A stretch of DNA of 64,000 bases from Brevundimonas sp. SH203 (GTDB lineage Bacteria > Pseudomonadota > Alphaproteobacteria > Caulobacterales > Caulobacteraceae). The stretch lies in contig NZ_BDMM01000001.1 of NCBI RefSeq assembly GCF_002157625.1, positions 496,001 through 560,000 on the forward strand, in the 5' to 3' direction. The notes under the pieces are model-generated. The model did not search any database, had not been told where the DNA came from, and worked only from the letters and a program-made list of their open reading frames with translations. A program made the position numbers and the translations under genes. Positions 55,591-59,993 of the stretch are shown here, one piece after another (position 1 is the first letter of the stretch; each line of letters begins with the position of its first letter).

Positions 55591-56342
55591 AGCGCCCGAT
55601 CCCACCCCGAAATCGGCGTCGCCCGGCCGGTTTCATCGACCGCCACCATGACGAACTCGGCGGCCGCCGAACGGCGTCGGTCGCCGGTCAGCAGGCTTTC
55701 AGCCCATAGCTCGACCTCCACCGTAACCGAGGACCGGCCCACCCTTGTCGCGCGCGAGGCCAGTTCGATCAGGTCGCCCTCGTGGATGGGGGCGGAGAAG
55801 TCGATCCGGCCGGAAGCCGCCATCACCATGACCGCCCGGGCCCGTCGCGTGGCGCAGACGAAGGCCGCCTTGGCCATCAGCTTCAGCGCGTCGCCGCCAT
55901 ACAGGGTGCCATAGTGGTTGGTCCAGGTCGGGAACACCGTCTCCACCGCCCGCAGCCAGCCGTCGTCGGTCGCATCGACGGCCGGAACGGGCGCAAGGGC
56001 GCCCTGCCCCTCGGTCTTCGGCGTCACCATGTTGAAGACGCCCTGCGTACACAGCCGCCGCTCGCCGCTGACCGGCGCCTCGGCCCACAGCTGGACCTCG
56101 ACGCCCATCGAGGTGCGCCCGACACGGACCACCCGCCCGGTCGCCTCGACCATCTCCCCGATCCGGGCGGGGGCGGCGAAGTCGATCCGCTCGCACCCGG
56201 CCGTCACGATGGGCCGCCGCGCATGACGCGCAGCGGCCAGGAAGGCGACCTTGTCCAAGTGCGCCAGACCGACGCCCCCGAACAATGTGCCGTGGTGGTT
56301 GGCGTCCCCGGGGAACACCATGTCGATCAGGGTGACGCTCAT
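55578..56342 (-). CDS. Tandem-hotdog acyl-CoA thioesterase
   Basis: A 254-residue protein made of two hotdog domains in tandem. Each carries the YciA/BACH-type pattern: [25 protein letters not shown] then [15 protein letters not shown] in the first half; [25 protein letters not shown] then [14 protein letters not shown] in the second. The paired Asn/Asp and Gly residues of the active site appear in both. It should hydrolyse acyl-CoA. The start overlaps the metE stop by four bases (ATGA), so it is translated with metE. Confidence 0.88.
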
Positions 56343-58678
56343 GCCGAGACGACGACCTGCCGCGCGACCTTGGCCGCCGACACCATATTGAGCAGGGCGG
56401 CCTCCGTCTCGGGCCAGCCGCGCGTCTTCAGCCCGCAGTCCGGGTTCACCCACAGCCGATCCGCCGGCAGCTTGCCCGCCGCCGCCGTCAGCAGGGCCGA
56501 CATCTCCTCGACCGAGGGAACGCGCGGCGAGTGGATGTCATAGACGCCCGGCCCGATCTCGGCCGGATAGCGATAGTCCGAAAACGCATCCAGCAGCTCC
56601 ATCTGCGAGCGCGACGTCTCGATGGAGATCACGTCCGCATCCATCGCGCCGATGGACTGGATGATGTCGTTGAACTCGGAATAGCACATATGGGTATGAA
56701 TCTGGGTCTCGTCCTTCACCCCCGAGGCGCTGATGCGGAAGCATTCCACCGCCCAGTCCAGATAGGCCGCCCAATCCGCGCGCCGCAGCGGCAGCCCCTC
56801 GCGCAGCGCCGCCTCGTCGATCTGGATCACCACCGCCCCGGCCGTCTCAAGGTCCGTCACCTCGTCGCGAATGGCGAACGCGATCTGGCGGCAGGTGGCG
56901 CCGCGCGGCTGGTCGTCGCGCACGAAGGACCAGTTCAATATGGTCACGGGCCCGGTCAGCATCCCCTTCATCGGGCGATCCGTCAGCGACTGGGCGTAAC
57001 GCCACCACTCCACCGTCATCGCCTTCGGCCGCGACACGTCGCCATAGATGATCGGCGGCCGCACGCAGCGCGAGCCATAGGACTGCACCCACGCCGCCTT
57101 GGTGAAGACGAAGCCCGACAGCTGTTCGCCGAAATACTGGACCATGTCGTTGCGCTCGAACTCGCCGTGGACCAGCACGTCCAGACCCAGGTCTTCCTGC
57201 CACTTCACCGTCCGCGCCGTCTCTTCACGCAGGAAGGCGGCGTAGGCGGCGTCGTCGATCAGCCGCCTGCCGTGGTCGGCGCGGGCCTTTCGCACCTCGG
57301 CCGTCTGGGGGAACGAGCCGATGGTCGTGGTCGGATAGGCCGGCAGCCCCAGTCGACGCTGCTGCACCGGACGGCGGATCTCAAAGCTGGAGGCGCGTCG
57401 GGCCAGGGCCGGATCGGCCTGCGCCGCCCGCGCCTGAACCTTCGGGTCGTTGATGCGCGGCGAGGTGCGACGCGACGCGACCGAGGCGGTCGAGGCGTCC
57501 AGTTCGGCCTTCACCGCCGCCCGGCCTTCATTCAGCGCGCGTGCGAGGGTGGCCAGTTCGGCGACCTTCTGCACCGCAAAGGCCAGCCAGTCCCTGATCT
57601 CGGCGTCCAGCCCCGTCTCCCGCTCCAGATCGATCGGCGTGTGCAGCAGGGAGCAGGACGGCGCCACGATCACCCGACGCCCGGCGGCGACCAGCGGCTC
57701 CACCCGGTCCAGCACCGCGTTCAGATCGGCCTTCCACACATTGCGCCCGTCGATGACGCCCAGAGACAGCACCTGATCCGGCCGCGTCCGCGACGCCACC
57801 TCGGCCAGCTGCTCCGGCGCCCGCACCAGATCCAGATGCAGCCCGTGGACCGGCAGCTTCAACGCCGTCTCCACATTGTCGCCCAGCGCTCCGAAATAGG
57901 TCGTCAGCATCACCTTGATCGGCGGCGTCACGTCGGTCAGCACTCGATAGGTGTGATCGAAGGCGGCCCGCGCCTCTGCAGTCAGGTCCGTGACCAGGCA
58001 GGGCTCGTCCAGCTGAACCCAGGTCGCCCCCGCCCGCGCCAGCGACCTCAGCACCTCGGCATAGACCGGCAACAGGCGCGGCAGCAGGCTCAGCACGTCG
58101 AACGCCTCGCCCCGCGTCTTGCCCAGCAGCAGATAGGACACCGGACCCAGCAGGACGGGCCGCGTCTCGATCCCCTGCGCCCTGGCCTCCAGATATTCGT
58201 CCAGCGCCTTTGTCGACCCCAGGCGGAACGTCTGGTCGGCCGTGAACTCGGGCGCGAGATAGTGGTAGTTGGTGTCGAACCATTTGGTCATCTCCATCGC
58301 CGGGACGCCCTCGCCCGCCCCGTGGACATGACCGTGTTCGCAGACCTGGCTCTCGCCGCGCGAGCCGCGCGCCATGGCGAAATAGGTCGCCAGATCGACC
58401 CGCTCGCCCTTCCAGCCATAGGCGGCGGGCACGGCCCCCACCATCGCCGTCAGGTCCAGCACCTGATCATAAAGAGAGAAATCGTTGGACGGCGCGATGT
58501 CGGCGCCCAGGTCGCGCTGTCGCGCCCAGGTCAGGGCGCGCAGTTCGGCGGCGGTGGACAGCAGGGCCTCGGCGTCGATCTTTCCGGCCCAATAGGCCTC
58601 CAGCGCGGTCTTCAGTTCGCGCTTGGGGCCGATGCGGGGAAAGCCGAGGGTGGCGACCTGGACGGGATGACGGATCAT
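56339..58678 (-). CDS. metE: Cobalamin-independent methionine synthase
   Basis: A 779-residue enzyme transferring methyl from methyltetrahydrofolate-triglutamate to homocysteine without B12. The N-terminal barrel begins [15 protein letters not shown]; the C-terminal barrel has [15 protein letters not shown] and the zinc ligands His and Cys of [12 protein letters not shown] with Cys of [10 protein letters not shown]. Length is normal. It is transcribed from a leader that carries a cobalamin riboswitch, so it should be repressed when B12 is available and a B12-dependent MetH can work. Coupled to the thioesterase gene. Confidence 0.97.
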
Positions 58679-58794
58679 GGCGTTCGAAACCTGTGTTGTG
58701 GCCAGGCTTCGGACAGGGTCGCGCGAGCGTCGTCGCGGACGAGAATGGTCCGGCGGCGCCAATGCGGCCTGACCGGACACCCCGCCGGAGGACG

Positions 58795-58965
58795 TTATCT
58801 GTCGGGGCAGGTCTCCTGGCTCACGGGTCACGGCTTCGGGTCCGGCCTTCCCGGCGCGAACGCCAGTGACACGAGATGGACCTTCGGCTCGCCGCTCACA
58901 GTTGCGGGGGCAGCGCCGGCGTCGCACCGGCTTCCCTCTTAGCTCCGTCCGATCCGAAGACCGGG
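58795..58965 (-). promoter_or_regulatory. Cobalamin (AdoCbl) riboswitch upstream of metE
   Basis: Read on the leftward strand, the region shows the cobalamin riboswitch landmarks in order: GGGAAGCCGGTGCGAC (around 58936-58921), GCTGCCCCCGCAACTGTGAG, and the B12 box AGCCAGGAGACCTGCC (58821-58806). It lies between the metE promoter and start codon. Binding of B12 should block metE expression. The exact ends are estimates; about 115 bases between the box and the start codon form the expression platform. Confidence 0.95.
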
Positions 58966-58985
58966 CGCAGAACCACGACTCGGAT

Positions 58986-59014
58986 ATCAAATCCCACCCG
59001 AGTCGCCACGTCAA
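58986..59014 (-). promoter_or_regulatory. Candidate metE promoter
   Basis: On the leftward strand TTGACG (59014-59009) and TTTGAT (58991-58986) are spaced by 17 bases. Transcription would begin near 58979, just ahead of the cobalamin riboswitch, which fits a riboswitch-bearing leader. Confidence 0.55.
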
Positions 59015-59019
59015 TAGAC

Positions 59020-59035
59020 ATAAGGATATGCTTAT
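59020..59035. promoter_or_regulatory. ArsR-type palindrome next to the metE promoter
   Basis: ATAAGGATATGCTTAT is a near-perfect 16-bp palindrome (ATAAG-N-ATAT-N-CTTAT) lying six bases upstream of the candidate -35 box, with a further ATATCTTTATAT stretch beside it. The form resembles binding sites of ArsR-family regulators of methionine metabolism such as SahR/SamR, as far as I recall. Regulator identity is inferred. Confidence 0.45.
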
Positions 59036-59243
59036 ATCTTTATATGATGGGCGAGCGTTAACCGCCTGCCCTCCCGCCTCCGCGATAGCGACACATTCTT
59101 GCCGCACTGCGTGACAGTCGCGCAACAGGACTACGACAGCGGCTCACCGAACAACGGTTTAATGCTGCGCTTCGTCCGTATGCTGATAGCAGGCGCCCCT
59201 CCCGGACCCCCATCCGGGCAAGGACTGCTAAGGACAAAACACA

Positions 59244-59993
59244 ATGAAGACGATCCTCCTCGCCTCGGCCGCCGCCGCCACCCTGTTCGCCGCTCCGGCC
59301 TTCGCCCAGGACGCCATCGGTTCGGTCGGCGTGACCTATTCGAACCCGACGATCAAAGCCGCCGGCAACGACATCGACGGCGACATCTGGTCGGTCGACG
59401 GCACCGTCGCCCTGCCGGCCAAGGACTGGACCGTGACGCTGAACGGCGCGGTCGATCACACCAAGGCCTTCGGTGAAGAAGACACCTCGGGCAAGGCCGC
59501 CGCTCACCTGACCAAGATGTGGACGTCCGACGTTCGCGCCGGCGGCTTCGTCGCCGCCAACGGCATCGGCACCGGCGACACCCTCTGGACCGTGGGCGCC
59601 GAAGCTCAGAAGTATCTGGCCGGCTCGACCCTGACCGGCCTGGTCGCCTGGACCGACGCCGACGCCGGCGACATCTGGACCGTCGGCGGCGACGCCGCCT
59701 TCTACGTCATGCCGAACCTGCGCCTGAACGCGGGCGTCGCCTACAACAACATCCGCCCGAACGGCGGCAACAACGCCGACGCCTGGACCTATGGCGTGGG
59801 CGCCGAATACGAGTTCGAGAACACCCCGTTCTCGGTGGGCGCCTCCTACACCCGCGCCGACCTGGACGCGGCTGACGTCGACACCTGGTCGCTGGGCCTG
59901 CGCTACTCCTTCGGCGGCGACCTGCAAGCCCGCGATCGCGCCGGCGCCAACCTGGGCGTCGCGGCGATCACGAGCGTCCTGGGCATTCGCTAA
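59244..59993 (+). CDS. Outer-membrane beta-barrel protein
   Basis: A 249-residue exported protein. The signal peptide is MKTILLASAAAATLFAAPAFA, cleaved before QDAIG. The mature part consists of alternating amphipathic strands with aromatic ends (DIWSVDGTVALPAKDWTVTLNGAVDH, AFYVMPNLRLNAGVAYNNI, WTYGVGAEYEFENTPFSVGASYTRA, WSLGLRYSFGG), typical of small barrels. No porin family can be named. An AAGGAC site precedes the ATG and a perfect terminator follows, so it is a strong stand-alone gene. Confidence 0.78.
   Translation: MKTILLASAAAATLFAAPAFAQDAIGSVGVTYSNPTIKAAGNDIDGDIWSVDGTVALPAKDWTVTLNGAVDHTKAFGEEDTSGKAAAHLTKMWTSDVRAGGFVAANGIGTGDTLWTVGAEAQKYLAGSTLTGLVAWTDADAGDIWTVGGDAAFYVMPNLRLNAGVAYNNIRPNGGNNADAWTYGVGAEYEFENTPFSVGASYTRADLDAADVDTWSLGLRYSFGGDLQARDRAGANLGVAAITSVLGIR

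Follow-up and report, generated by a model that had tools for sequence, protein, structure and literature searches.

A predicted SahR operator and a cobalamin riboswitch, arranged in series upstream of metE in Brevundimonas, suggest a two-input gate

SahR control of metE and B12 riboswitch control of metE are each known separately. In the SahR regulon (Leyn et al. 2014), as far as the available text of that account goes (PMC4239095), an ArsR-family regulator with a long palindromic site has sahR, ahcY, metH, metF and metK as its core targets, and metE is a less frequent one: within four groups, 29% of the SahR genomes are listed as having it under predicted SahR control. SahR of Desulfovibrio is reported to respond to S-adenosylhomocysteine (SAH; available text of PMC4239095 and PMC8877191), and PMC8877191, likewise in its available part, presents SahR as a repressor. 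The Brevundimonas locus analysed here is like that regulon in the family of the regulator, in the long palindrome and in the targets sahR, metF, metH, metK and ahcY, and unlike it in having a riboswitch: neither ‘cobalamin riboswitch’ nor ‘B12 riboswitch’ occurs in the accessible text of PMC4239095.

The closest described riboswitch is that of metE in Caulobacter crescentus (PMC6538847, available text), where a leader homologous to ours allows B12 to shut off translation with a K1/2 of 0.062 nM, and where a second riboswitch stands at btuB, as is probably the case here. Without B12, btuB (B12 import) and metE account for about 4.5% of protein synthesis in Caulobacter, according to the same text. 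That text, as far as available, contains no occurrence of SahR and, because its reporters were placed on a vanillate promoter, a transcriptional input could not appear in them. In Bacillus clausii, metE responds to a methyl-cycle signal as well as to B12, as we suppose for Brevundimonas, but does so through a NOR gate of two RNA aptamers, SAM-I and adenosylcobalamin (PMC9481103, available text), whereas Brevundimonas has one riboswitch and a predicted DNA-binding protein. With one Rfam match in the window rather than two aptamers, the metE region does not belong to the class of tandem SAM/B12 riboswitches; it may still work like such a gate, as a protein-plus-RNA counterpart to the all-RNA gate of Bacillus metE. 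In the open-licence literature we found no publication that joins SahR and a B12 riboswitch at metE or mesX.

Our analysis concerns a window of 64 kb (G000, contig C1, positions 496001-560000) from a Brevundimonas genome of 3.15 Mb. We propose, with a probability of roughly 0.7, that the metE region is a two-input gate, in which a SahR repressor is released by SAH and a B12 riboswitch blocks translation. A SahR-type repressor, encoded before metF and metH, would occupy a palindrome at -41 to -56 and mask the -35 region of the metE promoter. As SAH, the product of methylation, builds up, SahR would be released and metE transcribed, the transcript and the B12 aptamer beginning at the same base; bound B12 would then close the leader, and no MetE would be made. 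The MetH operon carries the same operator and no B12 riboswitch. With two gates in series, MetE should thus appear only when the methyl cycle requires homocysteine to be remethylated and MetH has too little B12 to do it. This suggests that the choice between a B12-dependent enzyme and a costly B12-free one is made at a single gene, with a protein sensing the methyl cycle and an RNA sensing B12. Several orders of the Alphaproteobacteria have this layout, which stands before two different enzymes, so that common laboratory strains would do for testing the proposal. Computation supplies the operator, its membership of a regulon, the layout of promoter and leader, the riboswitch family, the conservation and the co-occurrence with SahR; SahR binding, SAH as the ligand, repression as the sign at metE and the translational mechanism in this species are what we infer. 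The features of the region are collected in Table 1.

Table 1. Features of the metE control region, in window coordinates.
Feature	Position	Strand	Basis
metE, B12-independent methionine synthase, 779 aa	56339..58678	-	TIGR01371, 1125.9 bits
Candidate operator, 24-bp inverted repeat, 10/12 positions paired; 16-bp core 59020-59035	59016..59039	.	sequence and conservation in relatives
-35 box TTGACG	59009..59014	-	read from sequence; TTGAC recurs in relatives
-10 box TTTGAT (weak)	58986..58991	-	read from sequence; missed by strict scan
Probable +1, at the first base of stem P1 of the aptamer (GTCGTGG)	58979	-	homology to published C. crescentus +1
Cobalamin riboswitch aptamer	58789..58992	-	RF00174, Rfam limits
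Hairpin predicted immediately 5' of the metE start codon; may be the expression platform	58685..58711	-	folding

The palindrome core, ATAAGGATATGCTTAT, has zero mismatches to the pattern; with two mismatches allowed, the pattern occurs once in the window and never in 100 shuffles. The initial annotation of this DNA had described a 16-bp palindrome upstream of the metE promoter, which is indeed there, exact and once in the window; it had also said that the palindrome abuts the -35 box, a loose description, since the core is 5 nt away from the box and the extended 24-bp repeat ends 1 nt away. The spacer of the promoter, TTGACG-N17-TTTGAT on the minus strand, has the 17 nt claimed for it; moreover, TTGAC is kept in relatives and a published start fits. 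The MetE closest to ours among the named loci, at 89% identity, is from a Brevundimonas MAG. On the far side of the control region lies a divergent gene for an outer-membrane beta-barrel protein (OMP_b-brl, Porin_4) at 59244-59993.

At up to one mismatch the palindrome has four sites in the genome, and its reversed control none. These sites precede metE, metK, ahcY and a gene for an ArsR-HTH-methyltransferase protein (sahR) that is followed by metF and metH. The search at ahcY, metH and metK that the initial annotation had proposed therefore comes out in full, since the three sites besides that of metE are those of ahcY, metK and sahR-metF-metH; such a set indicates an ArsR-type methyl-cycle regulator, and the description of the palindrome as ArsR-type is supported by operator sites at methyl-cycle genes that include the own gene of an ArsR-family regulator. 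The regulator has 319 aa and matches PF01022 (HTH_5, 52.5 bits, cut-off 22), NF033788 (77.4 bits, cut-off 55) and, over residues 155-251 of 319, PF08241 (Methyltransf_11, 78.7 bits); among the 25 of 49 NCBIfam matches listed for it, no family is named for SahR. A methyltransferase-like domain that binds SAM or SAH is typical of alphaproteobacterial SahR, and the domain found here probably binds SAH. After sahR and metF, metH comes as two reading frames of 360 and 917 aa, which correspond to opposite ends of the metH model (L167:3162-7062). The palindrome looks like the operator of a SahR-type regulon, a palindrome of about 20 bp at sahR, ahcY, metF/metH and metK being the mark of such a regulon, to which, judging from sequence, SahR would bind at metE as well.

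Within the genus the regulon is nearly constant. An exact match to the degenerate site is present in 59/61 genomes, with no match of the reversed control in any of the 61, the exceptions being G004 (66% complete) and G020; SahR is found at E <= 1e-137 in 57/61, with partial matches in G039 (E 2e-69) and G037 (E 2e-25) and matches of only about 1e-8 in G024 and G041. Site and regulator part company in G041, with two sites and no clear SahR, and in G020, with SahR and no exact site. The operator precedes sahR at all 30 loci examined.

A strict sigma-70 scan lists no promoter at the metE leader; for the second hexamer it requires A as the second base, and the hexamer here has T. Our call of the promoter is based on conservation and on the published start site. 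TTGAC is present by eye in 18/18 leaders of the genus, in all 27 of the family leaders L168-L194 and in 18/18 of the named leaders with a riboswitch. The start site comes from a C. crescentus reporter of the metE 5' UTR, which extends from +1 to the start codon and is driven by a vanillate promoter (PMC6538847, available text). Nucleotides 1-40 of this reporter match another locus (100% in G133), and from nucleotide 41, GTCGTGG, it is the metE leader (99% in G180, G133 and G149). We read its first 40 nt as the vanillate promoter, and +1 is then the first base of the aptamer. A start upstream of TTGAC, with a -10 box inside the palindrome, was considered and rejected, since nucleotides 1-40 of the reporter do not come from the metE leader. 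With +1 placed by homology at 58979, the core of the operator spans -41 to -56.

For the comparison of leaders we anchored each on palindrome, TTGAC and riboswitch. By this rule 90 of 101 leaders qualify, near-duplicates included (70 counted as distinct), and eleven are excluded: L186 with a degenerate palindrome, L212 with TTGCA, L219, L220 and L223 without a riboswitch, L089, which is cut off, L090, L092 and L105 with no palindrome, and L259 and L270, in which the gap between palindrome and TTGAC is 1 nt. The rule itself demands TTGAC, so the conservation of TTGAC was judged on unfiltered sequences. The first base of P1 follows the beginning of TTGAC by 34-36 nt in most leaders; distances of 29 and 37 also occur, and those of 29 nt probably stem from a wrong anchor. 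From palindrome to TTGAC the gap is 7 nt in 70 of the 90 anchored leaders, 5 in 13, 6 in 5 and 4 in 2. Compared with TATAAT, the best -10 box matches at two of six positions in 22 of these operator-bearing leaders, at three in 52 and at four in 16, with a mean of 2.93 against 1.89 in shuffles, and never at five or six.

What would SahR do at such a promoter? At sahR and metK, in the genus, the operator lies between a CTTG-type -35 box and the -10 box, which is a plain repressor position, while at ahcY (seven loci, among them that of our genome) the -35 box follows the operator after 6-7 nt, the same arrangement as at metE; the boxes of all three genes are our reading. At metE and ahcY, where the operator is upstream of -35, repression is therefore less obvious than at sahR and metK. 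One could imagine that SahR activates metE from -41 to -56 by aiding the weak -10 box, so that metE, and ahcY alike, would fall as SAH rises, with sahR and metK still repressed. We regard this as unlikely. The position just upstream of -35 with a narrow gap of 4-7 nt, repeated at ahcY, is what an activator would show, but the narrow gap would also suit occlusion of the -35 box, and the gap of 1 nt in L259 and L270 speaks against activation. The -10 boxes offer a second argument: the operator-less leaders L090, L092 and L260, whose genomes have no SahR match, score 5, 5 and 4 (GATAAT, GATAAA), and stronger -10 boxes are what the loss of an activator should favour and the loss of a repressor should not. 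These three leaders are, however, probably a single clade, two being from Bradyrhizobium, and the -10 box of ahcY is a fair one (4/6) despite its operator. Moreover, the available text of PMC8877191 calls SahR a repressor. Repression relieved by SAH is the most likely sign at metE, because SahR is described as a repressor and, in Desulfovibrio, is reported to respond to SAH.

It is also conceivable, though in our view improbable, that SahR acts at metE but senses SAM, the SAM/SAH ratio or some other methyl-cycle compound rather than SAH. A general SAM-dependent methyltransferase domain forms the C-terminal part of the regulator and could accept either SAM or SAH, and according to the available text of PMC4239095 no effector has been established for the related SamR. 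On the other hand, the SAH response reported for Desulfovibrio SahR (PMC4239095 and PMC8877191, in part) argues for SAH, as does the presence of ahcY, the gene that removes SAH, among the targets in this genome.

The second input, in the SAH and B12 gate that we favour, is the riboswitch. The minus-strand match to RF00174 scores 121.2 bits (gathering score 31.5, E 7.1e-30) over model positions 1-189 of 189, in agreement with the full cobalamin riboswitch of the initial annotation, and it is the sole Rfam match at gathering threshold in the 64-kb window. It sits in the 5' leader of a B12-related gene, a leader that begins at 58979 by homology, with metE starting at 58678. The whole genome holds two cobalamin riboswitches, one at metE and the other upstream of a receptor gene that, by its sequence, is probably btuB-like; the genome-wide search, with these two in total, thus finds none at the metH operon. 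At the end of the leader a hairpin of 9 bp is predicted directly 5' of the start codon. The last 121 nt of the leader are not unusually stable overall (folding z -1.18, with 28/200 shuffles equally stable), and a sequence scan of the metE leader finds no terminator-like site. We take the second step to be translational because the C. crescentus metE leader shuts translation off, so that, by analogy, B12 would act on translation in Brevundimonas too. The two-input reading of the initial annotation largely stands. For the B12 input that had been proposed, there is the B12 control measured on this homologous Caulobacter leader (PMC6538847, available text).

A search for MetE in the genus gave matches in 21/61 genomes, comprising seven full-length proteins, eleven short MetE-like ones (E 3e-17 to 4e-21) and three weak ones. 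Full-length and short loci together number 18 (seven metE, eleven of the short-MetE/mesX type), and each of them has riboswitch and palindrome, in the order palindrome, TTGAC, aptamer, with 15 palindromes exact and three with one mismatch; at the three weak loci no palindrome is found even when two mismatches are allowed. We take the eleven short-MetE loci, from their sequences, to be mesX-mesD operons. In L043 the gene after the leader is MesX (PF08908, 586.5 bits), and the other ten were assigned by the likeness of their start sequences, five of them also by locus alignments, rather than by family searches. MesD requires MesX and oxygen, not B12 (PMC7857596, available text), and ‘riboswitch’ does not occur in the available part of that text.

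In the family the sample is 249 genomes, of which 95 have a MetE match and 55 a full-length one; 54 were examined, the fragmented G193 being set aside. All ten half-site positions are kept in 53/54 full-length metE loci (8/10 in L186), and the palindrome is followed by TTGAC in 52/54, L212 having TTGCA instead. Loss of the palindrome in relatives, which would have told against its role at metE, is therefore not what is seen in the 18/18 leaders of the genus or in these 53/54. A riboswitch is present in 51/54, by Rfam in 11 and by the aptamer core pattern only in 40; L219, L220 and L223 (G139, G194 and G179) have none by Rfam and keep palindrome and TTGAC. Elsewhere, 16 of the other short-MetE loci, whose genes may be mesD, were examined, L231-L245 from other genera and L246 from the genus; L232, L233, L235, L236, L238-L240, L244 and L245 were searched with Rfam and the remainder by pattern. 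Palindrome and riboswitch are both present in L231, L239, L240, L241, L242 and L246, the palindrome without a riboswitch in L233, an aptamer-core match without the palindrome in L234, and neither in L232, L235-L238 and L243-L245.

How could two different enzymes come to share one leader? G018 carries mesX-mesD (L247, 7800-10330) where the window has metE (56342-58694). Its flanks are 79% and 94% identical to those of the window and 88% and 97% to those of G027, which has metE, and the alignment is interrupted at the leader and again past the end of metE. The G018 leader is 95-100% identical to the metE leader of G027 through most of the aptamer and 78% in the promoter block, and after that it is 92-95% identical to the mesX type; the switch falls where the aptamers are nearly identical, at their 3' end. 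By its sequence G231 (L252) looks like the reverse chimera, and in G017 (L042) the leader is of the mesX type as far as roughly the start codon of metE. The thioesterase gene downstream is shared with four mesX-mesD loci (L253-L256) and may be a second recombination arm. These sequences suggest that metE and mesX-mesD have been exchanged under one operator-promoter-riboswitch leader, with breakpoints at or after the 3' end of the aptamer; judging by the chimeric leaders, the riboswitch seems to be the joint at which one B12-free synthase is exchanged for the other under a single control region. One may go further and combine this with a SahR whose sign is set by operator position, a repressor at sahR and metK and an activator at metE, mesX-mesD and ahcY, the whole being a portable starvation gate moved between the two synthases by recombination within the aptamer. 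This combination we consider unlikely, and repression at metE remains our preferred sign.

Among the named alphaproteobacterial metE loci L087-L106 a riboswitch lies upstream in 18/20, the others being L089, which is cut off, and L105 (Paracoccus), which is without one. SahR was sought at E <= 1e-15 in 22 genomes (those of L087-L106, plus L109 and G605, the genome of L260) and found in 17. L089 cannot be scored; in the 16 SahR-positive genomes that can, the operator is present in all 16 (9 or 10 of 10 half-site positions), against one of the five genomes without a SahR match (L101, a 2.6-Mb MAG), being absent in L090, L092, L105 and L260. Worked by hand and uncorrected for kinship, Fisher's exact test of operator against SahR gives about 8e-4. 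L090, L092 and L260 keep riboswitch and TTGAC with the operator absent.

This co-occurrence bears on a further reading, in which the palindrome belongs to another regulator, or to the divergent gene at 59244-59993, and has no part in metE control. That gene does share its intergenic region with metE, and a few genomes have the site without a SahR match or SahR without the site. Yet the site stays in place with the metE or mesX leader even among different neighbouring genes, it recurs at other methyl-cycle genes, and it is absent in four of the five genomes without a SahR match, so that we regard this reading as very improbable indeed and retain the palindrome as a predicted SahR operator of metE.

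A sample of the class comprised 387 genomes, with full MetE in 40 and SahR at E <= 1e-30 in 203. Of its 29 new loci, 20 were searched with Rfam and nine more by pattern only, the fragment G576 being left aside; the upstream offset was set at 1500 nt throughout, which is wrong near contig ends (about 315 nt in L268 and about 561 nt in L285). A riboswitch on the metE strand lies within about 700 nt upstream in seven of the 20 (L258, L259, L260, L262, L264, L270 and L271), and five of these seven have the operator (L258, L259, L262, L264 and L270); L271 has riboswitch and SahR and no operator, and L260 has neither SahR nor operator. Operator and riboswitch were both found in 6/40 class genomes with full MetE, our own included. 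The full layout of operator and riboswitch is thus widespread in the Alphaproteobacteria, without being universal. Four of the named loci have a further cobalamin riboswitch on the other side of metE, about 0.2-1.0 kb past its 3' end (L095:4509-4706, L098:5194-5407, L104:5302-5526 and L106:5191-5405).
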